Below, piece after piece: positions 17,463 to 36,958 of a stretch of 43,480 nt of DNA. The stretch comes from a virus: IMG/VR virus record IMGVR_UViG_3300027554_000008, positions 1 through 43,480 of that record, one strand, 5' to 3'. The notes beneath the pieces are model-generated. The model did no database searches and was not told where the DNA came from. It saw only the letters and a program-made list of their open reading frames with translations. The position numbers and the translations under genes are program-made. Numbering within the stretch: position 1 is the stretch's first letter; every line of letters starts with the position of its first letter.

Positions 17463-17498
17463 CAAAGATGTGGGGTAATTGCGGCGGGAAAAAGGACA
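17463..17498 (-). promoter_or_regulatory. Late promoter-like motif, copy at 17.5 kb
   Basis: On the minus strand TGTCCTTT (17491-17498) is followed by exactly 20 bases and then CATCTTTG (17463-17470), close to the Bacteroidota -7 box TAnnTTTG. The -7 box lies only four bases before the ATG of the 17108-17458 gene, so a transcript would be nearly leaderless or the downstream genes would use it. This is one of five close copies in the window. Confidence 0.6.
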
Positions 17499-17522
17499 GT
17501 ATAAAGGCGATATAAATAAAAA

Positions 17523-18443
17523 TTACTTATCTAACTCGGCCAGTTTGCGCTGATCCTCCAGGTAACTGAGGTAGGTAAAGGCGTTAGAATATTTCTGTTT
17601 GGAAACTTTCTTTAGCTCTGTGAGGCCTCCAGCCAGATTGAGGATCACTGCACCCCATCCGTAGTCGTTACCGGTCTTTTCTCCAGTATCTCCTGAAGAG
17701 AAGAGGTTTGCATATTTATTGATGATGTGATTCCGACATCCAGCAAACCAAAAGGTAATAATATGGAGGATCGGATCCGGAAGGTTTTTCATTCGCTCCA
17801 TTCGCTTTTTGACCATTCGCTCGTGATCGAGAATGGGAAGGCGGCGATCACCTTTGTATCCAGATTGCTTGTTTGCTTTTGTGATGGGTTTGGATGGCCG
17901 GTAGATTGTGGCAATTAATTCGAGCATGTGTTGCTTGTCTCCAGTCTTTAGATATTTTTCAAATAACGTAAAGGATAGTGCGAGCTCGTAGAGGGAAATG
18001 TTTTTTAGTTCGTCATCCGGACCGTAGAGTCGTTTGAGTTTGTTGCTAGCTTTCTTTCTCCAGTGAAGTTCTGGATATGGATTTTGGGTTAGACCGAGTT
18101 TGATACTATATAATGTATCACCTGCTTCATTTTCTTTGATATCGAAAAGGAAGTCTGCCAGCTTTAGTACTTCGTTGAGTTCTGATAAGAAGATGAGATT
18201 ACTGTTTTCTTCATCTTCCTGGACACAATCTGCTTCCCATTTTTGCATAAACTCGGGCTTGAGGTCGAGCAGCTCCTGTACGATCATGATGCGCTTGGCG
18301 GGCATGAGTTCTTCGGGTGCGAAATAGGATTTATGATTGGTCAACAGAATTCCGTACAAGCAGAGTTGATTGCGTAGGGATAGTCCATTCCAGGAATCAG
18401 GAATGGTGACTGTTCGGTTGTCGATGTTGACGGTGTTTTTCAT
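17523..18443 (-). CDS. Structural-region protein of 306 residues, unknown
   Basis: A mostly helical protein beginning with a short strand-rich part (VNIDNRTVTIPDSWNGLSLRNQLC). A long charged region follows, including RRLPILDHERMVKKRMERMKNL, then ILHIITFWFAGCRNHI and a C-terminal helical end. No motif is recognised. It sits between the tail-hub and portal genes, 80 bases from the latter unit. A tail-assembly chaperone or minor capsid role is possible from position only. Confidence 0.65.
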   Translation of the reverse strand: MKNTVNIDNRTVTIPDSWNGLSLRNQLCLYGILLTNHKSYFAPEELMPAKRIMIVQELLDLKPEFMQKWEADCVQEDEENSNLIFLSELNEVLKLADFLFDIKENEAGDTLYSIKLGLTQNPYPELHWRKKASNKLKRLYGPDDELKNISLYELALSFTLFEKYLKTGDKQHMLELIATIYRPSKPITKANKQSGYKGDRRLPILDHERMVKKRMERMKNLPDPILHIITFWFAGCRNHIINKYANLFSSGDTGEKTGNDYGWGAVILNLAGGLTELKKVSKQKYSNAFTYLSYLEDQRKLAELDK

Positions 18444-18465
18444 GGTGAGTGATTTGGTTTAAAAA

Positions 18466-18825
18466 TTATTTTTTATAGGTACCCTGGACCTGGCGCTGGA
18501 TCCGATCGACTTGGCGTTGTCGCATCCAGTTCAATGCATTTTGCATAGATGTAATCGCTTGTGATGATTCGCTGCAGGGAACGAGACTATTTTTAAATTT
18601 CATATCCGTGATCATCACAGATAATAAATGCTCGGGAAGTGTACCTTCTCTCTTTTCAACCTCTTCGTCTTTGAGTTTGCTCCCTCTCACAAATTTAATA
18701 TCTAGCATTGTTTCTATTTCAACAATACCTTTTCCATCGACGATCTTATACTGAGGTACTCGGTAGTGAGTTCCTTCTTCTACTGTTTCGAAGTTTTCTT
18801 TGAGTTCTAATTTAATTGATTTCAT
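18466..18825 (-). CDS. Tail-region protein of 119 residues, unknown
   Basis: A strand-rich N-terminal half (KLELKENFETVEEGTHYRVPQYKIVDG) and a helical C-terminus rich in Gln and Arg. It lies between the large tail gene (11 bases) and the 306-residue gene (22 bases). No domain recognised; the small size and position fit a tail-tube accessory or assembly chaperone. Confidence 0.65.
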   Translation of the reverse strand: MKSIKLELKENFETVEEGTHYRVPQYKIVDGKGIVEIETMLDIKFVRGSKLKDEEVEKREGTLPEHLLSVMITDMKFKNSLVPCSESSQAITSMQNALNWMRQRQVDRIQRQVQGTYKK

Positions 18826-18836
18826 GATTTTAAATT

Positions 18837-20711
18837 TTATGGTTCTTTAATAAAAGTTACTTTACTGAAGGACAATCCCTTGGTAGGTGATACAGAAAAT
18901 CGGACGACTTTTACGACGCCGATCATCTCTCCTTTTTCGTGATTGATTCGTTTACGTGGAAAGTCGAAACGACGTAGTGCCAATAGGTCATTAATACTTA
19001 ATCGGATTATCTTATCGACCTCTTCGCCGTTGGTTACCAGGTTGATATATTCCTTCCACCATTTTTCGTAGCGACCTTTTTCGCCGTTCCAGTCTAGCGA
19101 ATACTCGCCGATCTCTTCGCCTTGACGATTGACAGTAAAGGCGCTGGCCATCGGATATTCATTACCATCATTATCCTCCTGCATGCCTCTCCAGAAGATG
19201 AGGCGACTGGTGATATCGTTTATCTGGTCGATTGGTTCACTCGTTCCTTCTTCCTGGAGGAATGGGATCGTCCAGTTTCGCGTAAATGAAATTTTATCAT
19301 TTTCGGTTATCGAGAAATAGGTGTAAAACGGTGCCGTGATTTTTTTTGCTTTTAGTCCACCGTCTACATCTTCCAGCTGACCGGTTATCTCGGTTTCATC
19401 GCCTTGTCGATCGTACAAGAGGGAGAATCCGGAGGTTGTAGGATTATTAGTTTCGTATTCTGGTTCTGATAAATGTGTCCAATCTTCGACTTTTGATTTT
19501 AAAATATTTTTAATGATCTGAATTTTTATGACACCTTCATCGAGTGTATTATAAAGACAGAATGTATCGGATAAATATTTTAAAAAATCTTTGATGGTTA
19601 AATTCGGAAGGAAGTTTCCGAGATTGTAAACGGCCAACCATCGATTTAATTTTCCGGTTGCTGATGGTGCTTCGATCAATTCGTCGACTGTCTTGTTGGA
19701 TCCAATCAGGAGCTGTCGAATTTCGGGATCATCGAGGAAGTCACCGGTGATTTGGGAAATGCCAATGTCTTCGGCCAGGCTTTCGATCATTGGTGCGAGG
19801 AAAACGAATGGTACCAGGCTATACCTCCAGTGGGGTATCTCGTGAAAGTTGGTATTGTCCGGGTATTTGCCATCCGGTGTATAATAATTGAGGTAGCTCG
19901 CAAAAGTAAAACTTTCCGGACCCGTTTTAAATTCTTCCCCACCAAAAAAATTTGGGTTTTTAAAAGTTGGGAAAACATGGGTGACTGGATTTGCGATGAT
20001 GCCTGCTAGGTGATCTACCCAGAAATCGTTGAGGGTGTTTCCCAGCCCGTTGGAGTAGAAGAATTCGTGTGCAATCGGATTGTCTACAACTGGTTCAGTA
20101 TCTACAACTTTCTCCGGATTACCAGGACTGGTATCGAATAAGATGATAGAAATGGTATTAATGGTCTGTGACTGTAGCGTTGCGAATCCTGGATAAAGTG
20201 CATTGATTTCATCTACAATATCTAGTACGTTTTGGTACGGTACGCTGATTAAATCATCGTTGATTTTGATTGTAAAAAATTCAATTCCGGTACGTGGGAT
20301 AGTGGAAGCAGTTAGATACAATGTTTCCTGAAAGGAGTAATCAATCGCATGTTGCGAATTGTAGGCCTGGATGCTAACCTCCTCCATATCATCCAGGAGA
20401 CGTATGGGAGCATTTTGAAAATTTAATTTATATGATTTATTGGTGGATCCTTTCAAGATGATTACACCATCACGGAATAGCTGGTTATTGATATAAAACT
20501 GTGCATTCTCATAAACCTGTCCGGTACCCGGTACATCAATCCGTTCTGCTGATTTTAGGATAGCGATGTTTTTTGGTGTTGTATCGGCAGTAAAAATATT
20601 TGTAAATACACGCTCAATCTTGTCTCGATCGAAAATTGGATTTACGATCGAGACAGATATGGAGCTAGCGGAGAGATCAAGAAATTGGTGGTTTATGGCT
20701 ATTGCGTACAT
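18837..20711 (-). CDS. Tail tip or baseplate hub-like protein
   Basis: A 624-residue, strand-rich protein. The N-terminal domain (YAIAINHQFLDLSASSISVS, then IFTADTTPKNIAILKSAERID and GQVYENAQFYINNQLFRDGVI) resembles the distal-tail or baseplate proteins of Bacteroidota phages; the rest has alternating strands typical of hub proteins. It has no signal peptide and no fibre repeats. It follows the fibre genes by two bases. Role in attaching fibres to the tail tip is inferred. Confidence 0.6.
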   Translation of the reverse strand: MYAIAINHQFLDLSASSISVSIVNPIFDRDKIERVFTNIFTADTTPKNIAILKSAERIDVPGTGQVYENAQFYINNQLFRDGVIILKGSTNKSYKLNFQNAPIRLLDDMEEVSIQAYNSQHAIDYSFQETLYLTASTIPRTGIEFFTIKINDDLISVPYQNVLDIVDEINALYPGFATLQSQTINTISIILFDTSPGNPEKVVDTEPVVDNPIAHEFFYSNGLGNTLNDFWVDHLAGIIANPVTHVFPTFKNPNFFGGEEFKTGPESFTFASYLNYYTPDGKYPDNTNFHEIPHWRYSLVPFVFLAPMIESLAEDIGISQITGDFLDDPEIRQLLIGSNKTVDELIEAPSATGKLNRWLAVYNLGNFLPNLTIKDFLKYLSDTFCLYNTLDEGVIKIQIIKNILKSKVEDWTHLSEPEYETNNPTTSGFSLLYDRQGDETEITGQLEDVDGGLKAKKITAPFYTYFSITENDKISFTRNWTIPFLQEEGTSEPIDQINDITSRLIFWRGMQEDNDGNEYPMASAFTVNRQGEEIGEYSLDWNGEKGRYEKWWKEYINLVTNGEEVDKIIRLSINDLLALRRFDFPRKRINHEKGEMIGVVKVVRFSVSPTKGLSFSKVTFIKEP

Positions 20712-20713
20712 GG

Positions 20714-22501
20714 TTATTTTTTGTGTACCCAGTAGGTGTCATCGTGAACGAACGTCCAGATTTCGCGCGGTGGAATGATGTATTTTTTTGCAAATTTTCC
20801 GATTGCGGTAGCATTTGGATCGGTAGATTGTCCAGTTAGCGTGATACTATCTGTGTTATCAACATTATATATTGCAATTGTTTTGCCTTCCACGTTTCCC
20901 TCTCCAGAGTTGCCGATGAGAAATGCCTCCCAGGTCACAGGACCGAAAGGGTTGTATTTAAATGTATTGTAGTCATTTGCGATTGATTCGGTTAATATTT
21001 TATTGACTTCATTTACTGCTGTACCCAAGTTTGCCATTAGTCCTTCGGAGACGTTTTTTTCGTGGATGGTGGGGATGTCGATCTCGTAGCGATCTTGATA
21101 TATTTTAGCGGAATTGCCTCCATTGAAAATTACTCCGAAAAAATCATAAGAAGACTGAAATAGCATAAACTCTGAAGAGCTGGAAGGATTGAAATGACTT
21201 ATTCTTGATAAGCCTGGCGTAAAGGCGACTTGATCTAATGCACTGGAAGGAGAGAGGAATCTAATGCCTTGAGGTGCGAGGGTGAGGTCGACGCCGGTGG
21301 TGAGGGTGCCGGTGCCGAGGCGGTAGTCGTTTCCGGAGGTGGTGATGCCGCCGGAGGTGGTGTATATTGGTGGTGCTACATAATCACTAATATCTGACGT
21401 CGAAATTTGACCTGAACTTACATTTCCATTGGCATCACTTAACACAACCCCTTCATCTAAGTCTCTTATTCTTACATCCCCATTGACATCTAATTTTGCA
21501 GTAGGATCAGGTACCTCAATCCCTACATTTCCAGAACCACCCAGTACAGTAAGATACTCGGTCATCGTTACAGGAACGCCCACTTCAACTGATTGGGCGT
21601 TCCCATGAAACCACCTTAAATCTCTGCCGCTCACGAATATAGACCTTTCCCAAGGTGCATTGGAGGCTGTGGACCGAAAATCTGATGCACCTGTCATGCC
21701 TAAACCCCCGGTTGCGTAACCTATCATGGGCTCCGCTGTTGATCTTCTTGAACAAAAAGAAACGACATCATCAGTTGACGTATAAGCGCCTGATATAATG
21801 TCATCTCCACCTGTAGAACTAATTCCAGCTGTAATTTTTCCTTGCACATGTAGTTTTGACCAAGTATTGGTTTGATTTCTCCCAACTCCAAAATCATCTC
21901 CTGAGTTTTTTAGAAATGTATTTGCACCTGATGTACTTAGAAAACTTTCATATTCTGAAAGATCAAAATTTCCACCCCCATCAGACAAAGTAACTGTATT
22001 CCCATTTTTTGAAATTACTTGAGGTATTCCAACTCCATCCTGTCCGTCTGCTCCAGCGGGTCCGGCTGGCCCCACCGATTGCGGAACCGTAAAACTAGAA
22101 AGTGTCGAGTTTGTAATAACGTTGATCACATCAAAAACATAATTATCACCAACAATACCTGAATACTGATTTCGTGTATCTGTGTCAGTATCAGTATCTG
22201 TAATTTTTGGAACTGACATTGTAAAAGTTGTACCCTCCGGGCGCTGGAATACATAGCGCATTGGACTCGAAATTGTGTCAACACTTAGCAATATCACCGC
22301 ACTTGTATCTGATGTCAAAACATTTAGTAACGAGTCAAGGTCGTGAGGATTATATCGCGTCTTTCCATTTACCGTTTCAGATAATAGTACATCGCCGGCT
22401 CCTTGTGTCTGCAACGTAGTGGATGGATTCGCCTTAGTTGGTTCCTGTCCAAATAGAACAAAAGAGAAAAATAATAATAGAACTGTAATTAAGTGTTTCA
22501 T
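20714..22501 (-). CDS. Exported collagen-repeat, fibre-like protein
   Basis: A 595-residue fibre-like protein. The N-terminus is a convincing Sec signal peptide (LITVLLLFFSFVLFGQ), odd for a virion protein. Next are a DTDTDTDT repeat (near residue 105), a short collagen-like GPAGPAGADGQDG segment (near 145) and a NGNTVTLSDGGGNFDLS fibre repeat. The middle contains GNVGIEVPDPTAKLDVNGDV, a motif of many Bacteroidota surface proteins. The C-terminus ends in an aromatic strand segment. No S74 chaperone is visible. It could be a receptor-binding fibre or a surface protein displayed by the lysogen. Its N-terminus is similar to that of the neighbouring 22512-23297 product. Confidence 0.75.
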   Translation of the reverse strand: MKHLITVLLLFFSFVLFGQEPTKANPSTTLQTQGAGDVLLSETVNGKTRYNPHDLDSLLNVLTSDTSAVILLSVDTISSPMRYVFQRPEGTTFTMSVPKITDTDTDTDTRNQYSGIVGDNYVFDVINVITNSTLSSFTVPQSVGPAGPAGADGQDGVGIPQVISKNGNTVTLSDGGGNFDLSEYESFLSTSGANTFLKNSGDDFGVGRNQTNTWSKLHVQGKITAGISSTGGDDIISGAYTSTDDVVSFCSRRSTAEPMIGYATGGLGMTGASDFRSTASNAPWERSIFVSGRDLRWFHGNAQSVEVGVPVTMTEYLTVLGGSGNVGIEVPDPTAKLDVNGDVRIRDLDEGVVLSDANGNVSSGQISTSDISDYVAPPIYTTSGGITTSGNDYRLGTGTLTTGVDLTLAPQGIRFLSPSSALDQVAFTPGLSRISHFNPSSSSEFMLFQSSYDFFGVIFNGGNSAKIYQDRYEIDIPTIHEKNVSEGLMANLGTAVNEVNKILTESIANDYNTFKYNPFGPVTWEAFLIGNSGEGNVEGKTIAIYNVDNTDSITLTGQSTDPNATAIGKFAKKYIIPPREIWTFVHDDTYWVHKK

Positions 22502-22511
22502 GTGGTTTAAA

Positions 22512-23297
22512 TTATTCTACCCATCTGATTGAGATCGTCTCATTCTGAAGAGGTTCGTGAAAAATGATATTTGCTCCGGAAACTGAGTAGTCTCGTTGTA
22601 TTCCTCCAGAGTCATGCACCAGGCAACCGATGCCTGGTCTATTGACACAGAGATGATTCAAATCCGGTAGATTTCCTAAGTTAATACTGGTGGTTATACT
22701 ACCACCGATTTGATTATCAAAGACTTCATAATAGTGGATGAGTTGAGCATCGGTGCCGCCAGCGCCTAGTTTGACATTTATACTATTACCGCTGGTAATT
22801 GAAATGACTGCAGTCGAATCATTAGGATAAGAAACTCCCAATAGCTGGGAGTCCGTATTATCGAAATATCGACTTAGATCTACTTCGCCGCCATTTTGTA
22901 AAGTGATTTTATTACCGGACTCTCCGAGTTGTTGATTATCATGGTCTACGGCCAATAGACTTAGATCAATTAATTGGCTATCGATTGTCAATAGGTAAGT
23001 AGAAGTGTCATAAATAGTGACGATACTTCCAACCAAAGAGGATAGATCTACTTCACCACCATTGTCTAATGTTAAGATCCGATTGACGGCATCAAATTCC
23101 AGGATTTGGTTGTCGATAGAATCTTCAGAAACGTGATTATATCTTACGTATCCATTATAATTTTCTGATCTCAAGACCTTACCTGGTTGGCCATCCGTTC
23201 GTAAACCCGTTTTAGGATTGAGAGAACTAGAACCTGGTGGCTGTCCATATAATGAGAGGCTGATTAATAAAAAGAAAATTAAGAATATCGATTTCAT
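22512..23297 (-). CDS. Exported fibre-like protein with NGGEVDLS repeats
   Basis: A 261-residue protein with a Sec signal peptide (FLIFFLLISLSLYGQ). After it the text SLNPKTGLRTDGQPGKVLRSE parallels the start of the 20714-22501 product, so the two N-termini are probably related by duplication. Fibre-type repeats follow: ILTLDNGGEVDLS, then KITLQNGGEVDLS. The C-terminus is strand-rich. It lies between the tail genes and the larger fibre gene, with 10-11 base gaps. Confidence 0.7.
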   Translation of the reverse strand: MKSIFLIFFLLISLSLYGQPPGSSSLNPKTGLRTDGQPGKVLRSENYNGYVRYNHVSEDSIDNQILEFDAVNRILTLDNGGEVDLSSLVGSIVTIYDTSTYLLTIDSQLIDLSLLAVDHDNQQLGESGNKITLQNGGEVDLSRYFDNTDSQLLGVSYPNDSTAVISITSGNSINVKLGAGGTDAQLIHYYEVFDNQIGGSITTSINLGNLPDLNHLCVNRPGIGCLVHDSGGIQRDYSVSGANIIFHEPLQNETISIRWVE

Positions 23298-23308
23298 GAA
23301 AAAATAAT

Positions 23309-25368: not shown

Positions 25369-25369
25369 A

Positions 25370-25909
25370 TTAGAGTTGCTTTGGGGTTTTTCCACCATCT
25401 CCGTAACCGGCATCTGTTGGTGTATCAGGACAACTATCCCAAAGAGCTGAAATAGGAAAAGTAGTAATGTACCCGCTATACCCAACATCGCCGGCATATA
25501 CTTTTGGTTGTGAGTTAACATTCTCTAAGGTGTTAAGTGAATAATGGAATAAAGGATGACCGGCGGAACTATCAACGGCCATTCGCTTTAAAATCATATC
25601 ATTGATTTTCTCGCTTTTTTCCATCGCTGCGTTGAATGATTCTGAGCCGCCTTTTCTATTTGAATGATAGGATCCTATGAAATAACCACCCACCATTATT
25701 TTATTCAGTTGGTCCGAAAAATAAAAACGGTAGGTGTAATTCATCAACCGTATAATACTTGCTTTACCTTTTACCGCTGTCCTAAAATCGCCCATTGCTT
25801 CGTCAAAGCTGACCATTTCAAAAACTTTTGAATCTTCGGTATGAAGAAGCTCAGGATTTTTAATAGCCTGGTACTCAAAATATTTCCGGTATAGTTCATT
25901 GTAAATCAC
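25370..25909 (-). CDS. Tail-region protein of 179 residues, unknown
   Basis: First gene of the tail unit after the gap behind terminase, and it follows a late-promoter-like motif. The N-terminal half is helical with aromatic residues (YNELYRKYFEYQAIKN, MNYTYRFYFSDQLNK). The C-terminus is Gly/Pro/Tyr-rich (YAGDVGYSGYITTFP, DTPTDAGYGDGG) and looks extended. No domain is recognised. Confidence 0.65.
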   Translation of the reverse strand: MIYNELYRKYFEYQAIKNPELLHTEDSKVFEMVSFDEAMGDFRTAVKGKASIIRLMNYTYRFYFSDQLNKIMVGGYFIGSYHSNRKGGSESFNAAMEKSEKINDMILKRMAVDSSAGHPLFHYSLNTLENVNSQPKVYAGDVGYSGYITTFPISALWDSCPDTPTDAGYGDGGKTPKQL

Positions 25910-25913
25910 ATTG

Positions 25914-25949
25914 TAAAAATGCGGGATAATCAGGCTGGGAAAAAGGACA
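25914..25949 (-). promoter_or_regulatory. Late promoter-like motif, copy before the tail genes
   Basis: On the minus strand TGTCCTTT (25942-25949), then 20 bases, then CATTTTTA (25914-25921). The -7 part is weaker than in other copies, but the upstream block extends to TGTCCTTTTTCCC, identical to the copy at 17.5 kb. It lies directly before the first tail gene. Confidence 0.55.
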
Positions 25950-25985
25950 ATAAAACAAAATGAATATTTTGAATTTTCTTAAAAT

Positions 25986-26196: not shown

Positions 26197-27789
26197 TTAG
26201 TGGGTGATGAGCTTTGCGGATGGCAGGTAGCTACCATAGGAGGTGAGGAGGTGATGGAACATCCCATAGACCAGGGCGTCCATGGCATCGGATAGATCGG
26301 TAGCATGTTGTCGCTTGATGGACGAGCTGCTCTCTCCAGTCTTATCCTTTTTGATCTCATCGCGTGATCCCATCTTAGCCTTTGCATTGAACATGGATAC
26401 CCAGAGTTCCTTACAGTTGCTCATGTTCATTCGGAATGCGGGTAGGCGTGGATGGCCGCCCTTGAGGATCTGATTCCATAGTACATGCTTAGAGCCATGG
26501 AGCGGGTTACGTCCTCCCAATGTCATTAGTCGCACCTTCCACCCAGCGGCTTTCAGTTGCTTCTTAGCCATCTGTGCTCGAGTCAGCTTTGTGATCCCAG
26601 TATCATTATTACCTGTATTATCATACCATAAGAATATCTGGTCGTTCCATGCTTGGTGTGGTTTGTAGTAAGCAATAAAGTCTTCGAATAGATCTTCCTG
26701 TATCTTCTTCTCATCACCTAATACAAACATGGACTTGAGCGCCCGTATCTCCTGGCCGATGTGTTGACCGGCTACCAGACAATTGATGGCAGCTCCCCAG
26801 TCGACACCCAAGATCAGAGGCTTTCCAGCCTGCAGGTCAGCATCACCACGGCAATCGACCGTTTGTCCGATCGTAGTGTAATAGTCGTAGTTGAACTGAT
26901 TATAGGTGTGCTTATCTTCATCCAGGAGTGGGTAGAAACCGCCCTTTACTTGTTTGGGCCGGATGTTCATATACTCAGCATCGAATACCCAGGGGATGGT
27001 AACCGCTCTGGCATCATCGAGAAAACCATCCCGTAGATTGTGGGCATTGAAGCTACAATCAGCGCTGATGAATTTTACCTTTTCTGGCTCCTGAAATGAG
27101 AGCGCTTCCATATCTGTAAACCACCGGCCTTTGATCGTTAGAGGCGTTGAGCTGGTGTGCACCCGGGATGCAAAATGAGGACTTTTTTCAAACGCTTTTT
27201 TATTGGATCCTCGTAGCGTGGGAAGCGTGTTTTCGTCGAGTTTATTTTTGTTAAGAAGCGCACTTTCATCTCCTACTTCCCAATCGGTATTAAGTCCACG
27301 GCCATCACCTGGTACGTCGTGTGATATCAGGTTGCAGCCGGTACCATTGAAAAAAGTAATGTACCGATCGAACCGGTTAGGCGGTTGATACGGTAAGCGC
27401 CATTTCCAGGACTTAGGTGGTCTACGACCAATGAAATAATGGAGGTTTTGAAACAAGCCTTGTTGCTCCAGGCCCTGGATCATCGATGGTAATATCTGGG
27501 TGAGAATTTTCTGATATGTTGGGCCGATAAACATCCCGTTAGAGCGTGGCATCGAGTAAACTGCCTGTCGGAAGTGATGGCCGAGAAAAGTTGTCTTTCC
27601 GGTACCACGACCCCACTCCAGGAACAACCACTTGTACTGGAGGGTCGCCATGGAGGCGAGTAATTGAGGAATATTGTAGGAGATGGGTTTGTAGTTTTTC
27701 AGTACCTGGCGGGATAAACCTTGCCAGTCACCTTTACCGCGATCATGTAGTCGCGCTATCTCCTTTTTTATCATTTGGCTTTGGGACAT
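26197..27789 (-). CDS. terL: Terminase large subunit
   Basis: A 530-residue packaging motor from ATG 27789 (a start at 27819 would add ten residues). The ATPase domain has Walker A GRGTGKT (60-66) and Walker B with D174-E175 (WEVGDES). The RNase H-like nuclease domain has D330 (LGVDWG), D390 (LWYDNTG) and a late Asp cluster D498-D504 (ATDLSDAMD). It translocates DNA into the procapsid and cuts it. It overlaps the downstream small-terminase-like gene by 47 bases. Confidence 0.93.
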   Translation of the reverse strand: MSQSQMIKKEIARLHDRGKGDWQGLSRQVLKNYKPISYNIPQLLASMATLQYKWLFLEWGRGTGKTTFLGHHFRQAVYSMPRSNGMFIGPTYQKILTQILPSMIQGLEQQGLFQNLHYFIGRRPPKSWKWRLPYQPPNRFDRYITFFNGTGCNLISHDVPGDGRGLNTDWEVGDESALLNKNKLDENTLPTLRGSNKKAFEKSPHFASRVHTSSTPLTIKGRWFTDMEALSFQEPEKVKFISADCSFNAHNLRDGFLDDARAVTIPWVFDAEYMNIRPKQVKGGFYPLLDEDKHTYNQFNYDYYTTIGQTVDCRGDADLQAGKPLILGVDWGAAINCLVAGQHIGQEIRALKSMFVLGDEKKIQEDLFEDFIAYYKPHQAWNDQIFLWYDNTGNNDTGITKLTRAQMAKKQLKAAGWKVRLMTLGGRNPLHGSKHVLWNQILKGGHPRLPAFRMNMSNCKELWVSMFNAKAKMGSRDEIKKDKTGESSSSIKRQHATDLSDAMDALVYGMFHHLLTSYGSYLPSAKLITH

Positions 27790-28339
27790 CTTCGTAGTCG
27801 ATTTCTTCGACGCTCTCACGCATCTTCGATAAATTAATGCTCCCTTTACCGCTTAGTAATCTCATTAGCATGGCCTCCTGCTTGTCATCGATTATGATCG
27901 GATAGACGTTCGGCTGAAGTCCTTCAAAATCCGGACGATCCGGATCTTCTATATTGCAGCCACTTGCCTCGATATATGCTTTCGTAGCACTGGCCATCAC
28001 TTTTAAATCTTTATCTTTTTTGGCCATCCGGTACGTCTCCAGCGCCATTTCTTCGGCCATGTGGCGTTTGAACTCTTTATTTGATTTGCGGATATTTCCG
28101 AAAAGTTGCTGACACAGATCAATATCCCGATAAGCCTGGGCCTGGGATATGTCGTATTCCGACTGGAGTAATTCAATTATCTGATAGGTCGATTTTGCTT
28201 CAAGCAACAACGGATAAGTTGACTTCACACGTTTGAGCCGTAACTGCTGATGTTCGGTCAGTTCCGTTTCCTGGATCTGACCGGACATCATGCTGCTTAA
28301 AGCACTGAGATCATTCGGTTTGTTTCTCTTTTTCGACAT
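27743..28339 (-). CDS. Small-terminase-like protein, copy 2
   Basis: A 198-residue helical protein that recurs as a paralogue in the gene just upstream. Shared blocks are I-S-x-A-Q-A-Y-R-D-I, QLFG, LKPNVYPI or LQPNVYPI, and GS-NLSK. The AQAYRDI segment looks like the recognition helix of an HTH domain. Position directly before the large terminase gene supports a small-terminase role, which is to recognise pac/cos DNA. No close relative is claimed. It overlaps both neighbours. Confidence 0.65.
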   Translation of the reverse strand: MSKKRNKPNDLSALSSMMSGQIQETELTEHQQLRLKRVKSTYPLLLEAKSTYQIIELLQSEYDISQAQAYRDIDLCQQLFGNIRKSNKEFKRHMAEEMALETYRMAKKDKDLKVMASATKAYIEASGCNIEDPDRPDFEGLQPNVYPIIIDDKQEAMLMRLLSGKGSINLSKMRESVEEIDYEDVPKPNDKKGDSATT

Positions 28340-28883
28340 CTGTATATTTGACTGTTTGTGCGTCTTTGCTCATTAGCTTGGATAGATTCACACTACCCGG
28401 ATTGCTCAACAATTGTTTGAGCGTATCCTCAAGTTGTTGATCCAGGACGATTGGATATACGTTCGGTTTGAGTTTCTCAAACTCCGGGATATCCGGATCG
28501 TCGCGATCCAATCCTAACAATTTTATCATATTGCTGACGGCCTGAGACATTGCCTTGTGGTCACCGTTTTTGGCGGCCAGTTGGAATGTCTTTACGGCGT
28601 ATTCGTATATGACGTATCGATGGCCCTCCTTACTCGATGATATCACATCACCAAATAGCTGAATGGCATTCCGGATGTCCCGGTATGCCTGAGCTTCTGA
28701 TATTTTGAATTGTGATATCAGCAGCGGGATTGCCTGTTGGATGCTGTGATAATTGCACAGCAACGAAAACGAGGCAGACCATCTTTCTTTTATTTTCTCG
28801 TGCTTCTCTGTTAGTTCATATCCGAGTTGATAATGCTCTCTGATGGCCTGTTGGGCCGTGAGCTTGTTTCTTTGTTTTGACAT
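28311..28883 (-). CDS. Small-terminase-like protein, copy 1
   Basis: A 190-residue paralogue of the next gene: it has KISEAQAYRDI, IQLFGDV, KLKPNVYPIVLD and NPGSVNLSKL in the same order and spacing. The N-terminal 45 residues differ more. Two diverged tandem copies suggest either hetero-oligomers or one copy with a changed role. It overlaps the methyltransferase gene by 73 bases and the second copy by 29 bases. Confidence 0.65.
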   Translation of the reverse strand: MSKQRNKLTAQQAIREHYQLGYELTEKHEKIKERWSASFSLLCNYHSIQQAIPLLISQFKISEAQAYRDIRNAIQLFGDVISSSKEGHRYVIYEYAVKTFQLAAKNGDHKAMSQAVSNMIKLLGLDRDDPDIPEFEKLKPNVYPIVLDQQLEDTLKQLLSNPGSVNLSKLMSKDAQTVKYTDVEKEKQTE

Positions 28884-30223: not shown

Positions 30224-30869
30224 TCGTCTTCTTTTTAAGGTTAATCAATTCGAGCTGCTTATCGAGCAGCTCCTTCTCATACCTTAATTTCTCTTTGTCT
30301 GTAATATTCTTTTTCAGTAGTCCCTTTAATTTGCTAATACGACTACCTAAACTATTGATTCTGTTCAGTGCCTCGACACCTTCCTGGAAGCCGCGATCGT
30401 AGTCACTGGAGGATCGCGGTAGGTCACCCGTTTCTTTCCAGCTTCTGATTTGATCATAAATCTTATCTAAAGCAGGAATCACTACATCCATTATTTCATG
30501 CGCTGCGTTGTATCGATCCTCATCGGTTTCTAGCAGGCTCAGCTGAGCGTGCAGATAGGCTTGACGTTTGTGCAGTTTCCTGGCTTTATATCGAAGCATC
30601 AGGATTGCTTCCGGCTCTAGCTCTTTCACTTCCACCGTATTGATTACTATGGTATCCGTCGTTACTGGAGATGGAGGATTGACTAATTCCTTTTCTGGAA
30701 TCTGCGACAAACAATACCGCAGTTTTTCTTCCAGTCTTTCTGGAATATAATCTGCGTCTTCGAAGCCTTCAAACATCGAGATAGCATAAGGACTGTATTG
30801 CATGTTGGCACGCAAAATGGCCACCCCTGGTAAATAGGGGCAGCCATTTTTTAACCATTCACTCACCAT
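30216..30869 (-). CDS. Helical protein of 217 residues before the methyltransferase, unknown
   Basis: The opening SEWLKNGCPYLPGV is like the short 'W..GCP' motif of some DNA-packaging (Nu1-like) proteins, but the remainder does not match. Residues 85-217 are charged coiled coil ending in a Lys-rich tail. It overlaps the methyltransferase gene by eight bases. Role unknown; a packaging or regulatory partner of the methyltransferase is possible. Confidence 0.6.
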   Translation of the reverse strand: MVSEWLKNGCPYLPGVAILRANMQYSPYAISMFEGFEDADYIPERLEEKLRYCLSQIPEKELVNPPSPVTTDTIVINTVEVKELEPEAILMLRYKARKLHKRQAYLHAQLSLLETDEDRYNAAHEIMDVVIPALDKIYDQIRSWKETGDLPRSSSDYDRGFQEGVEALNRINSLGSRISKLKGLLKKNITDKEKLRYEKELLDKQLELINLKKKTNG

Positions 30870-30903
30870 AATGGTATCGGTTTTGTCCTCGGGGGAAAGG
30901 ACG
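30868..30903 (-). promoter_or_regulatory. Weak copy of the late promoter-like motif
   Basis: On the minus strand GCGTCCTTT (ending at 30896) is clear, but the segment 20 bases downstream (ACCATTAT, 30868-30875) only poorly matches TAnnTTTG and overlaps the start codon of the 30216-30869 gene. I list it because the upstream block is conserved; it may be non-functional or use another -7 sequence. Confidence 0.25.
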
Positions 30904-30911
30904 CTTGGGGT

Positions 30912-31196: not shown

Positions 31197-31202
31197 AATG
31201 GA

Positions 31203-31772
31203 TTAGATATTTGGAGTTACATCGATACCATGCGTCCCGTCGTCATACTTCAAGAGATAGCTATCGAATTTAATTGAATAGGCTGCACCATTTAGGTCGC
31301 CATTTTTCTCACCACCGTCACCAGCGATCGACTCAACGTAAGCTGGAATCTTATCGGTTCCAATCACGGTCATTTCAGTAGCTTCACGCTGCTTTATCAT
31401 CATTGCGATACAACCGCTAGCCTTCAGCAAGTTGACCGAGAATTCGATCTGCTCAGCTTCGCTGCCGATAATGAAAAAACGAAAAGCGGACATAAATCCT
31501 TCGCCTCCCAGATCACCTTCTTTATCCCACTTCACACCACCGGTGTTAATCAGGATTCGAGCTTTACGCCAGTATCCTTCTCCAGACTCAGCAGTAGTAA
31601 AATCGAAAGGCTCAGCCAGGCGAACACTATCGCCAGGCAACGGATCTCCAACGGCCAATTGCTTAGCAGTTTGTGGATAACCGTTCAATTCGCAGATACA
31701 AGTGTAGTAGATGTCAACCTCCGTTCCTGGAGGCAATTTCTGACCACATTCTTTAACCAGGTTCTCTAACAT
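31203..31772 (-). CDS. Candidate major tail tube protein
   Basis: A 189-residue, strand-rich, acidic protein (GEGFMSAFRFFIIGSEAEQIEFS, YSIKFDSYLLKYDDGTHGIDV). The size, lack of coiled coils and position after capsid genes fit a siphovirus tail tube protein. There is no diagnostic motif, so this is an inference from layout and composition. It could instead be a minor capsid or decoration protein. Confidence 0.45.
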   Translation of the reverse strand: MLENLVKECGQKLPPGTEVDIYYTCICELNGYPQTAKQLAVGDPLPGDSVRLAEPFDFTTAESGEGYWRKARILINTGGVKWDKEGDLGGEGFMSAFRFFIIGSEAEQIEFSVNLLKASGCIAMMIKQREATEMTVIGTDKIPAYVESIAGDGGEKNGDLNGAAYSIKFDSYLLKYDDGTHGIDVTPNI

Positions 31773-31811
31773 ATTATTTGGTTTTTTGGGGTTAAGTAAA
31801 ATAGAAGGCTA

Positions 31812-32219
31812 CTACTTCAAGTAAGCGTACTTCATTTTTACCAAACTAGTCAGGAACTTCTCAGCGATCTCCTGGTTAATCGTGCTGATGGCCGGATTGC
31901 GCTCCAACACTTTTTTGCCTGCCTCCTTACCGTTGGCAATAGCGATAACCGATTCGGTTTCTACGCGATGGCCGCCGATGTAGAGATGGCGATGGCCATC
32001 TTTAAATTTTACCGTTTTGGTGACGGATTTTCCAGATGGATCTTTGTAGGAAGCTTTGTAGCTACCTTCCACCGGCGTTGGTGCTCCAGCGTCTACCGCT
32101 ATTTTGCGGAGTTCTTCTACTTCCTCGCCTTTAGCCGTGATCGCAGCATCTTTCTCTGCAATCATAGCCGTGGCTTCAGCTAGTTCTTTTTCTAATTGTT
32201 CGATGGTCTTTTGGGCCAT
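31812..32219 (-). CDS. Capsid-adjacent small protein
   Basis: A 135-residue protein with an N-terminal coiled coil (IEQLEKELAEATAMIAEKDA) and a compact C-terminal domain having a GHRHLYIGGHRV segment. It follows the major capsid gene by 46 bases. Such proteins may decorate the capsid or help its assembly; I do not recognise the family. Confidence 0.6.
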   Translation of the reverse strand: MAQKTIEQLEKELAEATAMIAEKDAAITAKGEEVEELRKIAVDAGAPTPVEGSYKASYKDPSGKSVTKTVKFKDGHRHLYIGGHRVETESVIAIANGKEAGKKVLERNPAISTINQEIAEKFLTSLVKMKYAYLK

Positions 32220-32265
32220 GATATTATTTTCTTGAGTTAAATAAAATTGTTAATTACGGAGGCTA

Positions 32266-33228
32266 CTATACAGTAGCGAACTGATCATTTACGAACGTAT
32301 TTGGCCAGAACCCGGTACCGTAGAATCGGCTAAATTCTGCCAATCCTTTCAGCTTACGATCCTGCTCTTGCCAGCGGATAACCGGCATTAGTGATTCACC
32401 GATGCGACGGCCAATCAACAGATTTCGTTTAGGTGTAAACAGGATTGCATCGGAACCTTCCATTTCAGAATATCCTTTGATTACCTTGTTAGTACGCTCG
32501 ACTCGCAATTCACTATTTTGATTGCCAGCTACACCGTTTCCGGTACCAAACAGCGCACGGTAATTTCTCCAGTATCGCTTTTCAACGGTTTTGCTGACTT
32601 TAATTTCGCCAGGCATATCTCTTTGGGCAACCGGGATTGCATCACAGAAAGATTCCATCTGATCGACTGCTGTATTGGCACCAATGGCACCTGTAGCAAT
32701 CGGTGTTAATAAACCAGAATCGATCGCATCATTCCCCTTCTTACGTAATCCATCGACAGAATTGATCGTTACACCAGCAGTACCGACAACCGGAGCCTGA
32801 TAGATTCCGTTGAAAGAAAGAGTACCGAAGTTCTCAATGATTTTCGGCATGAGAATTTCCTGGTAAACGTACCGTGGGAATGTCCATTGGGCACGCGGCT
32901 TACCATCTTCTACCCATTCGCACTGCCAGTTATCGAAGAATTCGTCGATATCTTCTGGCATAAAGAGGATATCAATTTTCATTCGTTGCAACTTGTTTTC
33001 ATTGGCACCGAATTGAACGCCCATCTTTGGCGTGAATTCTCCCTGATAAGCCTGGATTAGATCCTGGGTTTCAGCATTTGGAGCTACGTGGGTATGCTTT
33101 GCTCTAACTTGACGCATGCCCATTTCCAGCTCGTTGCCCGTGCGGACTACTTGCTGAATTTTCTTTTCGTATTGTCTGTGGTGTAGACTGAGCGACGTAG
33201 CCGCTTCAGCGATTGTGATATTTGCCAT
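32266..33228 (-). CDS. Major capsid protein (probable)
   Basis: A 320-residue protein. Its N-terminal helix is followed by a stretch rich in Met and Gln (GNELEMGMRQVRAKHTHV), then a strand-rich core (KMGVQFGANENKLQRMKIDILFMPEDIDEF) and Gly-rich regions, as in HK97-fold capsids of Bacteroidota phages. It directly follows a ClpP-like protease-scaffold gene (67-base gap), the standard order protease then capsid. The gap holds a poor motif copy (33256-33291). No other product in the window fits better. Confidence 0.7.
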   Translation of the reverse strand: MANITIAEAATSLSLHHRQYEKKIQQVVRTGNELEMGMRQVRAKHTHVAPNAETQDLIQAYQGEFTPKMGVQFGANENKLQRMKIDILFMPEDIDEFFDNWQCEWVEDGKPRAQWTFPRYVYQEILMPKIIENFGTLSFNGIYQAPVVGTAGVTINSVDGLRKKGNDAIDSGLLTPIATGAIGANTAVDQMESFCDAIPVAQRDMPGEIKVSKTVEKRYWRNYRALFGTGNGVAGNQNSELRVERTNKVIKGYSEMEGSDAILFTPKRNLLIGRRIGESLMPVIRWQEQDRKLKGLAEFSRFYGTGFWPNTFVNDQFATV

Positions 33229-33295
33229 TTGGTTTTTGGGTATTCTTTAAATAAAAAAATAGTGTCTCTTAGTGTGTCGGTTTAGGGGACGGCCT

Positions 33296-34456
33296 CTATA
33301 CGCCGAAAGTTACAGTTCCTGATTCACCAGCTTTTGCAAACTTTTCATTCAGGGCATCCAGCTTCTGAATGTCAGCGACCTGCTCTTCATTCATCGTGGA
33401 GTAATCGTCGCCATTAGACGCGATACCAGTAGGCTTCGCACCAGGCTCATCACCCAGCTTTTGGATGTCAGTTTCGAGCTTGGTGATCTTCGCTTCGTAC
33501 TTCTCCTCCATCTTCTTCTCAACTGCCGCGACGATGGCTTCTACATCAAACTCAGCCTTTTTTTCTACTGCTGGTTTAACGGGAGGATCCTGCTCTGTAG
33601 GAGTAACGGTGAAGCCCATTTCAGCCATCACTTTAGTTACATCTTCGGTTGTCATTTTCTTTTCAGTCAGTGACTGCTTGAATTCATTAATATCCATATC
33701 TGAATTATTTTTTTGGATTGATTTAGTTGGTAAAAGCCCATCGATGCGGGCTTGAATTTTTTCAATAATGGAGAGGCTCTTTGACGTTTCGGTGGATCGG
33801 AAATATTTCACAACTTCCGGAAGGGTCATTTTTTCGATATCCTCTGGAGTACCTTCTATTTTATAGGATTCTACCTGGGATATGAGGCCAATTTTTGCGG
33901 CTTCGCTGGAAGTGATCCAGTGATCTTTTCCGTCAAAATAATTTTTCCGGATATCGTCTTCGCTCATTCCTGTGTCTTCAGCCATTTGACTGATACCGGT
34001 ATCGGTGAATACTTTCAGCATGTCCGCAGCTTCACGGAGTTCTTTTTCATTTCCGTGGACCATCGCGGATGGCGCGTGGATCATGATCTTTGCATTCACT
34101 GGCGCGTGGCGATTTTCTTTTTTGACCGAAAGAAAAATATCCGTTGCTTTGGAGGCTACCATACCATCGTTATAAGTATGAATATCCATCTTACTGGCTT
34201 TGATCGTTGCGACGATTCCGTCTCCATGCTTTTCTGATCCTCCAGGAGAATTCAGGCGGATGTTTAACCGGGTAACACCTTCCTGCTCCATTTCAGTGAT
34301 GGCCTTTACGATTGCCATATCGGTAATGGTTTCGTTAGCCGGATCATCATTCCTGCGTTCCCAATCATATTGACCAATCACGCCGTATAAATACATCGTG
34401 CCAACGCCATCGGCGTTTTTGTTGATCAAAACTTTTTGAACTTCAGATTTTTTCAT
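33296..34456 (-). CDS. ClpP-like prohead protease fused to scaffold-like tail
   Basis: A 386-residue protein. The ClpP-like serine protease domain covers residues 15-215, with S102 (MVAS), H127 (MIHAP) and D178 (KDHWITSSEAA) matching the Ser-His-Asp triad positions. LNSPGG (69-73) forms the oxyanion-hole strand. Residues 255-386 are acidic coiled coil (ILE/KKMEEKYEAKITKLE), typical of a delta-domain or scaffold that is removed during capsid maturation. An in-frame Met near residue 254 may also start a separate scaffold product, as in other phages. It directly precedes the capsid gene. Confidence 0.88.
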   Translation of the reverse strand: MKKSEVQKVLINKNADGVGTMYLYGVIGQYDWERRNDDPANETITDMAIVKAITEMEQEGVTRLNIRLNSPGGSEKHGDGIVATIKASKMDIHTYNDGMVASKATDIFLSVKKENRHAPVNAKIMIHAPSAMVHGNEKELREAADMLKVFTDTGISQMAEDTGMSEDDIRKNYFDGKDHWITSSEAAKIGLISQVESYKIEGTPEDIEKMTLPEVVKYFRSTETSKSLSIIEKIQARIDGLLPTKSIQKNNSDMDINEFKQSLTEKKMTTEDVTKVMAEMGFTVTPTEQDPPVKPAVEKKAEFDVEAIVAAVEKKMEEKYEAKITKLETDIQKLGDEPGAKPTGIASNGDDYSTMNEEQVADIQKLDALNEKFAKAGESGTVTFGV

Positions 34457-34460
34457 AATA

Positions 34461-34496
34461 CAATAATGCAGATGATTTATTTATATATAAAGGACG
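34461..34496 (-). promoter_or_regulatory. Late promoter-like motif before the protease gene
   Basis: On the minus strand GTCCTTT (34489-34495, GCGTCCTTT in full), then 20 bases, then CATTATTG (34461-34468). The -7 part differs from TAnnTTTG in two places. It lies a few bases before the ATG of the protease gene and could drive capsid-module expression. Confidence 0.5.
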
Positions 34497-35000
34497 CTAA
34501 ACATTCCATACCGGATTGAATCCGAACGCTTTATCTATGGTTTCACTGGTAAATTCTACCGAATGATGTTTGAGTGATCCACTCTGACCGGAGGTGCCAC
34601 GACTCGAAAATATAAACGGAGTTTCGAGCGTACCTAACAGCCACTTTCGATTTTCTACGTCTTCAATACGGAGTAAATACTCGAAGCCTTTCATTCGATT
34701 AATTTCGCCGGAAGCTTTTGGATCCAGCCCTGGTATAATACCAGTCACCTGTTGCTGGTAGCTGATGCCCTGGTCGGTATCGCGCTCCGTTTCATTCCAT
34801 AATTTTCTACGAATTAGAAAAGGAGCTTTTAACCAGGTGCCGGTTGTGAACAACACATTGAACTGCCAATTGTAATCATCGCTGATCCTTCGTTCGAAGC
34901 TGTCTTTATCGATCCAGCTAATTGGCGCGTATTCTACGGTGACCAATCCTGATCGATTTAACTGATTACAATAATGCTGGAGGCCAAGGAGGTTACTCAT
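34497..35000 (-). CDS. Structural-region protein of 167 residues, unknown
   Basis: I start at ATG 35000 (MSNLLGLQHYC) because the longer frame to 35045 would overlap a conserved promoter-like motif. The product is strand-rich (WQFNVLFTTGTWLKAPFLIRRKLW, YLLRIEDVENRKWLLGTLETPFIF) and has a GTSGQSGSLKHHSVEFTS end, reminiscent of small baseplate or tail proteins. It is at the start of the capsid block. No family is recognised. Confidence 0.6.
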   Translation of the reverse strand: MSNLLGLQHYCNQLNRSGLVTVEYAPISWIDKDSFERRISDDYNWQFNVLFTTGTWLKAPFLIRRKLWNETERDTDQGISYQQQVTGIIPGLDPKASGEINRMKGFEYLLRIEDVENRKWLLGTLETPFIFSSRGTSGQSGSLKHHSVEFTSETIDKAFGFNPVWNV

Positions 35001-35005
35001 GACCA

Positions 35006-35041
35006 CAAAGGTGTGGGAAAATTGCGCCCGGAAAAAGGACA
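35006..35041 (-). promoter_or_regulatory. Late promoter-like motif before the 34497-35000 gene
   Basis: On the minus strand TGTCCTTT (35034-35041), 20 bases, then CACCTTTG (35006-35013). Flanking bases are also conserved with the copy at 17.5 kb (TGTCCTTTTTCC, then GCAATT and CCCA in the spacer). The -7 box ends five bases before the chosen ATG. Confidence 0.6.
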
Positions 35042-35132
35042 GCAAAACAGAAAAAAAAAGAGGACAGCCGGTTTTTCGGATATCAGCGCAGCTACCCTTA
35101 ACACTACCGTGTTCAGCGTGAGGACAGCATTG

Positions 35133-35636
35133 TTACCTAAAAGCTGCTTTTAATTGATGAATTGTTGGAATTTCTTTATTTCCTCTTAGACGACCATTCG
35201 TACGTTTCACTGTATGCCAATCGATATCGTCATCGGCACCTATTTCTTTTAGGTAATCCTCTACAATCGTTTTTTCTTTTTTTGAATGAATCTGTGTGAG
35301 AATTCTTTGAGTGAGAATCTCGTGAAACAACAGATGCATGTGATCATTAAATAATGCAATGTTGGAACGACTGATGTAAAAGTCCTTGAATTGTTTTTGG
35401 CGTAAGGTGATGGAATATTTCAGCTTGACGGTGAAACGAGTAAACTGGTTAGTCACCGTATCACTGTCGTTAATTGGGATCTGTTTTTTTGGCGTAAACA
35501 GAAGCAACATAGTGCGAGTGATCATTGTTTTTTTTGTCAAGTCAATAGGTTCCCCTGGTTCCATATTTTCCATCCAATAAACAAATTTCAGCAGATGTGG
35601 CTGCATTGGCATAACGCCGGTGAATTCAAATGTCAT
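35133..35636 (-). CDS. Protein of 167 residues, unknown, possibly DNA-binding
   Basis: A basic, helical protein. The start (QPHLLKFVYWMENMEPGEPIDL) and the end (DDDIDWHTVKRTNGRLRGNKEIP) recall a family of Bacteroidota mobile-element proteins with a C-terminal basic, Arg/Lys-rich helix. No firm match can be claimed. It lacks a copy of the late motif and is preceded by a terminator. It lies just before the capsid block, so a regulator of late transcription is one testable idea. Between it and the next gene (35001-35132) there are two 9-bp direct repeats. Confidence 0.55.
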   Translation of the reverse strand: MTFEFTGVMPMQPHLLKFVYWMENMEPGEPIDLTKKTMITRTMLLLFTPKKQIPINDSDTVTNQFTRFTVKLKYSITLRQKQFKDFYISRSNIALFNDHMHLLFHEILTQRILTQIHSKKEKTIVEDYLKEIGADDDIDWHTVKRTNGRLRGNKEIPTIHQLKAAFR

Positions 35637-35687
35637 GGGTCTAATATATTTCCTACTAATATATGAAAAAAACAGGATATAGGGAGT

Positions 35688-35722
35688 AAAAAAAAAGGCA
35701 AGCGATGGATAATCACTTGCCT
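35688..35722 (-). terminator. Terminator after the EF-hand-like gene
   Basis: AGGCAAG (35696-35702) and CTTGCCT (35716-35722) pair, with GAT/ATC inside after one mismatch. On the minus strand nine Ts follow (35688-35696). It ends transcription after the 35738-36115 gene. Confidence 0.8.
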
Positions 35723-35737
35723 CTTAAAATATGTGTA

Positions 35738-36115
35738 CTAAGCGCGGGAAAATATTTCTTTCATCTTTTTAGCATATCTGTAATTGTATGCCAAGGCATT
35801 GACCGTGAGTTTGATCGCCTCCTCAATATTATCGTATTTCATTGGCAAATCAAGATCAGATTCTACAAATAATCTCAACTCTTCTCTTTCTTCATCATTC
35901 AGATCCTTGTATTCTTTTTTCAACCAGGGAAATGCTTCATACAGCGCGGGGAATCGAAACGATACCGTAGTAATCGCTGAGAGAATTTCTGAGATGCTGG
36001 TTTTTCCATCACTGTTTTTATCAATAGTAAGTGATTCAATCACTGCTAAGAATAAAAATTTAAGCATTGCTTTCAGATTCTCAATACCGTAAAGGTTTAC
36101 TTCTTGTGCTTTCAT
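35738..36115 (-). CDS. Helical protein with a single EF-hand-like loop
   Basis: A 125-residue helical protein. Residues 33-44 read DKNSDGKTSISE, with Asp, Asn, Asp-Gly and Glu at positions 1, 3, 5-6 and 12 of the calcium-binding EF-hand or dockerin loop; position 8 has Thr instead of the usual hydrophobic residue. It is flanked by hydrophobic helices. I know no phage family with this arrangement. It has its own late-promoter-like motif upstream and a terminator downstream, so it may be a one-gene unit. Confidence 0.65.
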   Translation of the reverse strand: MKAQEVNLYGIENLKAMLKFLFLAVIESLTIDKNSDGKTSISEILSAITTVSFRFPALYEAFPWLKKEYKDLNDEEREELRLFVESDLDLPMKYDNIEEAIKLTVNALAYNYRYAKKMKEIFSRA

Positions 36116-36170
36116 AAGGCGTTCTTTTTAGATTTAAAATTCATTAATGAAAATTCATAATTGTGAACCA

Positions 36171-36205
36171 CAAATTGCAACATAAATGCAGATAATGAAA
36201 GGACA
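36171..36205 (-). promoter_or_regulatory. Late promoter-like motif before the EF-hand-like gene
   Basis: On the minus strand TGTCCTTT (36198-36205), 19 bases, then GCAATTTG (36171-36178), which keeps the TTTG end of the -7 box. A leader of about 55 bases separates it from the ATG at 36115. It abuts the 3' end of the cupin gene. Confidence 0.55.
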
Positions 36206-36206
36206 G

Positions 36207-36602
36207 CTACTCGGGGAATTCCACGTAAAAATCGTAGTCTGTAACCCCTTCCAGTTTGTGTGCGATGTTGGGCTGGAAAACGATGGTATCGCCTGGATTA
36301 TATAAAACTTCGTTGAGCTTGATTTGACCTTCGATGAGCCGAACGATTTCTTTGCAATTGTGAGCATGTAGCTCCAGTATTGAACCAGCAATGCCGACGG
36401 TTCTAAACATCAGGGTCTTATCCAGGTAAACAGGAATCACGAACCCCTCGACGCCATCCCCTAGCGGGATAGGATCTAAAAAGTTTTTTACATTGTTTCT
36501 TATTTCGAATAAGTCTTCTCTGGAAATCAGCGGTACATCCTTTCTTTGCCAAAAGGATCCTAGCCTCTTAATGATTTTTTCGCTGTGCGTTAATGAGCTC
36601 AT
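36207..36602 (-). CDS. Cupin-fold protein of 131 residues
   Basis: The second half is a cupin barrel: motif 1 near HAHNCKEIVRLIEG and motif 2 near NPGDTIVFQPNIAHKL. The metal ligands would be the two His in HAH and the His in AHKL, with Glu in KEIV. Most cupins bind a metal and a small molecule. Only the structure class is clear; the phage role is unknown. The gene overlaps the membrane protein gene upstream by 35 bases and is followed at once by the next promoter motif. Confidence 0.75.
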   Translation of the reverse strand: MSSLTHSEKIIKRLGSFWQRKDVPLISREDLFEIRNNVKNFLDPIPLGDGVEGFVIPVYLDKTLMFRTVGIAGSILELHAHNCKEIVRLIEGQIKLNEVLYNPGDTIVFQPNIAHKLEGVTDYDFYVEFPE

Positions 36603-36834
36603 TTTTTATTTGATCGAGTTTTTGAAATACCATTTGGAGTAGACCAGCATAGCTATCACTATGAGCTCGCAGATCAGTCGTATGGGCCTTGGTTTTGTCG
36701 CTGGATTCGTTTTTGATTGATTTCACCTCCTTCCGAAGATCGAAGATCCAAAACATCATGACTGGTGTAGCACCATAGGTTATTATGAGATCGATGATCT
36801 TTCCGATGTCAATAAATAGAAGCGTGCTGAACAT
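36568..36834 (-). CDS. Small membrane protein, holin-like candidate
   Basis: An 88-residue protein with one N-terminal membrane segment (about residues 5-28, including IDLIITYGATPVMMFWIF) and a charged coiled-coil tail. This layout fits some holin or holin-like proteins of Bacteroidota phages, but the endolysin gene is far away at 9.7-10.5 kb. Lysis function is thus only possible. It has a good late-promoter motif about 90 bases upstream. Confidence 0.6.
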   Translation of the reverse strand: MFSTLLFIDIGKIIDLIITYGATPVMMFWIFDLRKEVKSIKNESSDKTKAHTTDLRAHSDSYAGLLQMVFQKLDQIKNELINAQRKNH

Positions 36835-36922
36835 AATTTATTTTAGTCTCATAGGATTAATAATCGTCATCGGGAATGATGACCGGTGCCTGGTGAGTAC
36901 TACATGGTTGGTTATTAGACTA

Positions 36923-36958
36923 CAAATGTAAGGCCGATGGGGCCATAAGGAAAGGACA
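36923..36958 (-). promoter_or_regulatory. Best copy of the late promoter-like motif
   Basis: On the minus strand TGTCCTTT (36951-36958), 20 bases, then TACATTTG (36923-36930), a perfect TAnnTTTG box. It comes right after the terminator at 36960-36997 and about 90 bases before the small membrane protein gene, exactly where a new unit should start. Confidence 0.7.

Follow-up and report, generated by a model that had tools for sequence, protein, structure and literature searches.

The window, i.e., the whole stretch of DNA analyzed here, comprises the 43,480 nt of the virus record IMGVR_UViG_3300027554_000008. It carries terminase, portal, ClpP-like protease, capsid, and tape-measure genes, as in a siphophage lineage. 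The primase gene is found in two parts at the ends of the contig (1-725 and 41126-43480, minus strand), and because it is divided between both ends, the contig appears to be circularly permuted and nearly complete and not to be cut at a biological end. Single-query searches of IMG/VR with a window protein and with the window terminase retrieved no relatives; the profile route succeeded. Named relatives are the Polaribacter phage Leef_1, the 'Microcystis' phage Mea-Yong924-1, prophages of Porphyromonas, and the Duneviridae 6H and laban6-1. Mea-Yong924-1 (L005, MZ447863.1) has late promoters and genes of the Bacteroidota type, and its stated cyanobacterial host is doubtful. In the window, the adjacent genes 27743-28339 and 28311-28883 belong to one terminase-small-subunit-like family and resemble a tandem duplication. 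The 580-base gap between the early and the late genes contains, at 37871-38068, densely clustered TGGACT/AGTCCA units with a period of 8 in part, an iteron-like arrangement that may mark a replication origin. In some relatives, comparable GGAC or GTAGG units in tandem are found upstream of the family gene that corresponds to 35133-35636.

An earlier note, made from the letters of the window, had described five close and several weaker copies of a two-part motif, GTCCTTT-N19/20-YAnnTTTG, in gaps that precede late genes, all on the minus strand. Position, strand, and spacing proved correct for the five close copies and for a further copy at 34461-34496. The window has seven GTCCTTT blocks, all of them minus-strand and in gaps upstream of late genes (36.9-17.5 kb); none is on the plus strand, and the early and lysogeny regions, which had been described as seemingly free of the motif, indeed contain none. 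The block alone is weak evidence, as TGTCCTTT occurs 5 times in the window versus 2.4 expected, and at least 5 copies were present in 8 of 100 shuffles. Shuffled controls, as proposed in the note, were also run for the two-part form, which occurs three times in the window versus not once in 150 first-order Markov shuffles. A looser two-part form occurs five times; its mean in such shuffles was 0.08 and its maximum 1. The two-part motif in the window is not due to chance.

Next, the window was scored with a weight matrix trained on other phages only, and the number of matches expected per strand of the window was calculated for each score. The top of the list was formed by the sites 36957, 17497, 35040, and 25948, and the tally was four firm, two probable, one doubtful, and one rejected site (Table 1). 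The copy at 30868-30903, which had been listed among the weaker ones, scored at chance level, and the site at 33256-33291, which had been put forward with a 'perhaps', was absent from the matches of the independent matrix and was rejected. Two plus-strand matches (27760 and 26344) lie inside genes on the opposite strand and were regarded as chance. A terminator-like hairpin, GCCAGGAG...CTCCTGGC-T7, was found immediately upstream of the 36957 site.

Table 1. Motif sites and the candidate activator gene in the window; scores are from the matrix trained on other phages, expected numbers are per strand of the window
Feature	Coordinates	Strand	GTCCTTT block	Spacer	-7 box	Predicted +1	Score	Expected	Remark
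Firm late promoter	36918..36957	-	36951-36957	N20	TACATTTG 36923-36930	36918	24.2 (highest in window)	0.000	before 36568-36834
Probable late promoter	36166..36204	-	36198-36204	N19	GCAATTTG 36171-36178	~36166	12.8	0.17	before 35738-36115
Proposed late activator	35133..35636	-							167 aa; uncharacterised family, member in each motif-carrying phage examined
Firm late promoter	35001..35040	-	35034-35040	N20	CACCTTTG 35006-35013	35001	23.5	0.000	
Probable late promoter	34456..34495	-	34489-34495	N20	CATTATTG 34461-34468	34456	15.4	0.05	
Doubtful site	30864..30902	-	30896-30902		poor box		6.9	2.0	
Firm late promoter	25909..25948	-	25942-25948	N20	CATTTTTA 25914-25921	25909	17.3	0.017	
Firm late promoter	17458..17497	-	17491-17497	N20	CATCTTTG 17463-17470	17458	23.9	0.000	

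The motif was not confined to the window. GTCCTTT-N20-TAnnTTTG was found in phages of Bacteroides, Porphyromonas, Prevotella, and Polaribacter, with at most five strict copies per record. In 41 records, the strict matches all lay on one strand within each record, and the backward pattern was not found. A scan of IMG/VR with the exact motif yielded 17, 70, and 33 matches for spacings of 19, 20, and 21, respectively, i.e., a peak at 20, whereas the control with displaced spacing was flat. The comparison with coding DNA that the earlier note had suggested was made in the same database, and 53 of 120 motif matches were non-coding versus 22 of 120 with displaced spacing. An independent test made use of 69 loci that had been retrieved through protein similarity only, none from the motif scan. 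They contained 23 sense matches at a spacing of 20, a single antisense match (spacing 28), and no sense match at any other spacing between 8 and 40. When non-coding GTCCTTT served as the sole anchor and no box was required, the TAnnTTTG logo emerged at exactly the expected distance; among antisense GTCCTTT, only 1 of 63 had a box. Unguided counting of the words upstream of A..TTTG, performed for each relative, ranked GTCCTTT first in the gut phage MT835542 and placed TGTCACA among the top words in laban6-1. A targeted search found copies in the late gaps of Leef_1, Mea-Yong924-1, and a Porphyromonas phage. Five genomes (G001, G003, G014, G020, and G029) with few or single matches, which have neither the structural module nor the protein family described below, were not accepted as motif phages, and their matches were treated as chance.

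The sequence of the block differs between phage groups. In laban6-1, the diverged block TGTCACAA is present at N20 at five sites, 6H has the diverged block ATGTCTTAA at two sites, both blocks in the position otherwise taken by GTCCTTT, and some Bacteroidales phages have TGTCTTTT or GTCCTTC instead of GTCCTTT. GTC is common to all variants. This divergence would fit a specificity that drifted along with its reader.

The position of the motif relative to the transcript start can be deduced from the host. Mapped start sites of Flavobacterium place TAnnTTTG at -12 to -5 (PMC9723704), and the host consensus includes a TTTG at -33 (quoted in PMC7366714). Therefore, GTCCTTT falls at -39 to -33, in the slot of the host -33 TTTG. 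The downstream part of the motif agrees with the -7 box of Bacteroidota primary-sigma promoters, and its unbiased logo is T.63 A.79 n n T.73 T.88 T/C G.76. The -33 TTTG, expected about 19-21 bases upstream, is missing, and its slot is occupied by GTCCTTT, after which A (0.49) or T (0.33) stands and not the G of TTTG. The proposal of a promoter class in which the block replaces the -33 TTTG is supported by the comparative tests, as regards both the class and its placement.

Start codons were used as a proxy for transcript starts. An ATG or GTG is located exactly at the predicted +1 in 37 of 138 distinct sites, which are partly related by descent, come from 29 records, and precede 27 dissimilar proteins; each neighbouring offset has a start codon in at most 5 of the 138 sites. 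The first ATG was at the predicted +1 in 31 of 138 sites versus 11 of 1,201 control boxes. In the window, the predicted +1 coincides with the first base of three start codons, namely, the ATG of 17108-17458 (which precedes the portal gene) at 17458, the GTG of ORF 25370-25909 at 25909, and the ATG of the gene for the ClpP-like prohead protease at 34456; at the 35040 site, the ATG of the next gene is at 35000 (+2), one base after the predicted start. The start codons at the predicted +1 thus support both the promoter reading and the putative start, and many late mRNAs should be leaderless. In the hosts, 5′-UTRs of less than 10 nt make up about 3.7% (PMC7366714), and a leaderless share of 5.5% was found in another survey (PMC9723704).

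A protein family that accompanies the motif was identified with a profile iterated from a 13-member cluster of proteins of about 165 aa. The profile found a member in 26 of 26 motif-carrying phages, including the 35133-35636 product of the window, and diverged members in 6H and laban6-1 (gp42 in the latter). Two long additional members in G002 and G010 were treated as spurious recruits. In leave-one-out tests, each member was the top match of its own genome, with E = 3e-6 for the window product against the profile built without it and with 0.0018 for the weakest member (G028). When other small families (<260 aa) were compared by the same procedure, the 35133-35636 family was the only non-structural one that was universal. 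The earlier note had named this product as a possible binder of the block, and the co-occurrence singled out the same protein. Based on these comparisons of sequences, we propose that the 35133-35636 product is the late activator. Often, the family gene precedes the first late promoter by a few hundred bases. Two motif sites of the window lie upstream of the 35133-35636 gene itself, which was counted against its product as late activator, as were the box-less GTCCTTT blocks that come after the family gene in many phages. Searches of Pfam, NCBIfam, and the PDB sequences with the family yielded nothing relevant, and PHROGs contributed a single small family with no assigned function. The temperate B. 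thetaiotaomicron phage BT-TP2 carries a family member together with the motif, the latter at late gaps (10592, 17978, 25812, and 32317 of PQ571279.1). This member, gp8, was labelled 'transcriptional regulator' by the depositors, who gave no evidence. Because the family and the motif belong to a single phage lineage, co-inheritance without function could explain part of the common occurrence.

Confident AlphaFold models were obtained, with a mean pLDDT of 92 for the member L329 and 84.9 for the window product. In the predicted fold, the N-terminus forms a small alpha/beta part, next comes a long helix, and at the C-terminus, two helices (residues 121-132 and 140-152 of the window product) are predicted to be placed as in a helix-turn-helix. 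R149 of the window product, in the last helix, is the sole invariant residue of the 26-row alignment, and the core group of the family has a basic tail after this helix. A fold search of the PDB for a known activator gave no significant match; its weak matches include Myb-like, homeodomain, and sigma -35-binding domains. In a viral library, the Leef_1 member alone was significant (E 3.4e-5, 18% identity), which is independent support for its distant homology.

The promoter class may be real and GTCCTTT may be read by a different phage factor, e.g., the terminase-small-subunit-like protein with its HTH or an unrecognised small protein, while the 35133-35636 family would serve, for example, replication or head assembly. 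Terminase, portal, head, and adaptor genes are indeed also common to all motif phages, the terminase-small-subunit-like family is present in 25 of 26, and the comparison covered families of less than 260 aa. However, families present in 25 of 26 phages are found within the structural gene region and the proposed family ahead of it, and LuxR-like early regulators were rejected as the shared factor as they occur in only 9 of 26. A different phage reader is thus unlikely, although it is the most serious competitor of the proposed one.

It appears improbable that the host primary sigma factor alone is responsible, with GTCCTTT as no more than a strong upstream element in which a degenerate -33 box is embedded, and with the late timing brought about by repression or replication. 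In favour of this, the -7 box agrees with the consensus of the host, and the -33 slot is where the TTT of GTCCTTT falls. But the final G of TTTG is not conserved, with A or T found after TTT, the block differs between phage groups, and a good sigma element should also be used by the hosts, which do not show such use.

Bacteroidota have many ECF sigma factors (PMC9723704), and the earlier note had left open whether the motif is read by an activator of the phage or by a sigma factor of the host. In 296 other Bacteroidota genomes, the motif was found 31 times versus about 73 times for the reversed control. Because it is not above the control, the motif is not a host promoter class, as far as these genomes tell, which speaks against a host sigma factor that has a regulon of its own. 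In lysogens (e.g., G060, G063, G064, and G065), the matches go with the prophage, sharing the contig with the phage gene within tens of kilobases, and the -7 box belongs to the primary sigma factor. Hence, of the two options, the phage activator is favoured, and it is very improbable that the reader is an alternative sigma factor or an activator of the host. That the element is a signal in RNA or DNA and not a promoter, e.g., a place where the transcript is processed or bound by a protein, is scarcely credible in view of the phylum's -7 consensus at a single fixed spacing, the start codons exactly on its +1, and the hairpin before the 36957 site, even if one type of GTCCTTT in many phages lies box-less 3′ of the candidate activator gene.

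A repeated upstream site at a fixed distance, before late operons only and restricted to phages, is the arrangement of activator-dependent late promoters, and the motif shows this arrangement. Taken together, the motif is probably such a promoter class, belonging to a large siphophage lineage of the Bacteroidota and read by the 35133-35636 family. In this mechanism, the family protein would be made ahead of the late phase and would bind to GTCCTTT, probably through the C-terminal helix-turn-helix. The host RNA polymerase with the primary sigma factor would read the -7 box TAnnTTTG, and GTCCTTT would substitute for the -33 TTTG normally used. Instead of the sigma/-33 contact, the bound protein would recruit or position the polymerase, and the late operons would thereby be switched on, several of them as leaderless mRNAs.

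With Bacteroidota primary-sigma promoters (PMC7366714, PMC9723704), the phage class shares the -7 box and its position, but the block in the upstream slot is not enriched in the hosts. Control by an activator box in place of the upstream sigma element is an already known kind of phage control. By its position, GTCCTTT conforms to sigma appropriation, and at the T4 middle promoters, MotA/AsiA likewise replace the upstream element while the downstream element is kept (PMC6755090). By analogy, the family protein may take over the sigma/-33 contact as MotA/AsiA do (PMC6755090). The two systems differ in that the MotA box is centred near -30 and the GTCCTTT block near -36, and that the T4 promoters are middle and those of the window late. 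Homology with MotA was not found: the 26 members gave no Pfam match beyond chance, and the PDB fold search gave no significant match. Among the non-significant viral-library fold matches were four gp33-type or late-coactivator proteins (E 0.86-3.8), which are only a lead to the T4 late coactivator gp33. The C protein of Mu (PMC4461284) is a small phage protein that turns on several late promoters, as proposed here, but the host phylum and the box differ, and a Mor/C family domain was not found in the 26 members in Pfam, PHROGs, or NCBIfam.

We consider it rather likely that all this represents a single phylum-wide late switch, consisting of an undescribed activator family with a fold unlike solved proteins, the GTCCTTT block (TGTCACAA or ATGTCTTAA in Duneviridae, co-evolved), and many leaderless operons. 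In a search of open-licence papers, no report on late-gene control in Bacteroidota phages was found, nor were the promoter class, the candidate reader, or the phylum-wide spread. The promoter code of the late genes would become readable from sequence, and the motif could serve as a marker for the phage lineage and its host phylum. It comes with a universal regulator candidate for testing in laboratory temperate phages such as the Bacteroides phage BT-TP2, and the phage-specific pair of promoter and activator might be used in Bacteroides genetics. Unusually many leaderless late mRNAs are predicted, in a phylum with few leaderless mRNAs.

Three further observations were made in the relatives. 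Many phages carry, some tens of bases past the stop codon of the family gene, a GTCCTTT that lacks a box (L327:10515, L334:7570, L336:7010, L337:10517, L343:7592, L349:6020, and L413:6029), and this is possibly a second type of binding site or a means of autoregulation. In one clade, the spacer of the late promoter contains a conserved palindrome-like element, GGTAATTACC (L325:13887, L332:6640, L344:14245, L359:10385, and L362:8998), perhaps an extra operator. In BT-TP2, an annotated reverse transcriptase gene (L413:40959-42254) follows a very long late gene and could belong to a diversity-generating retroelement.
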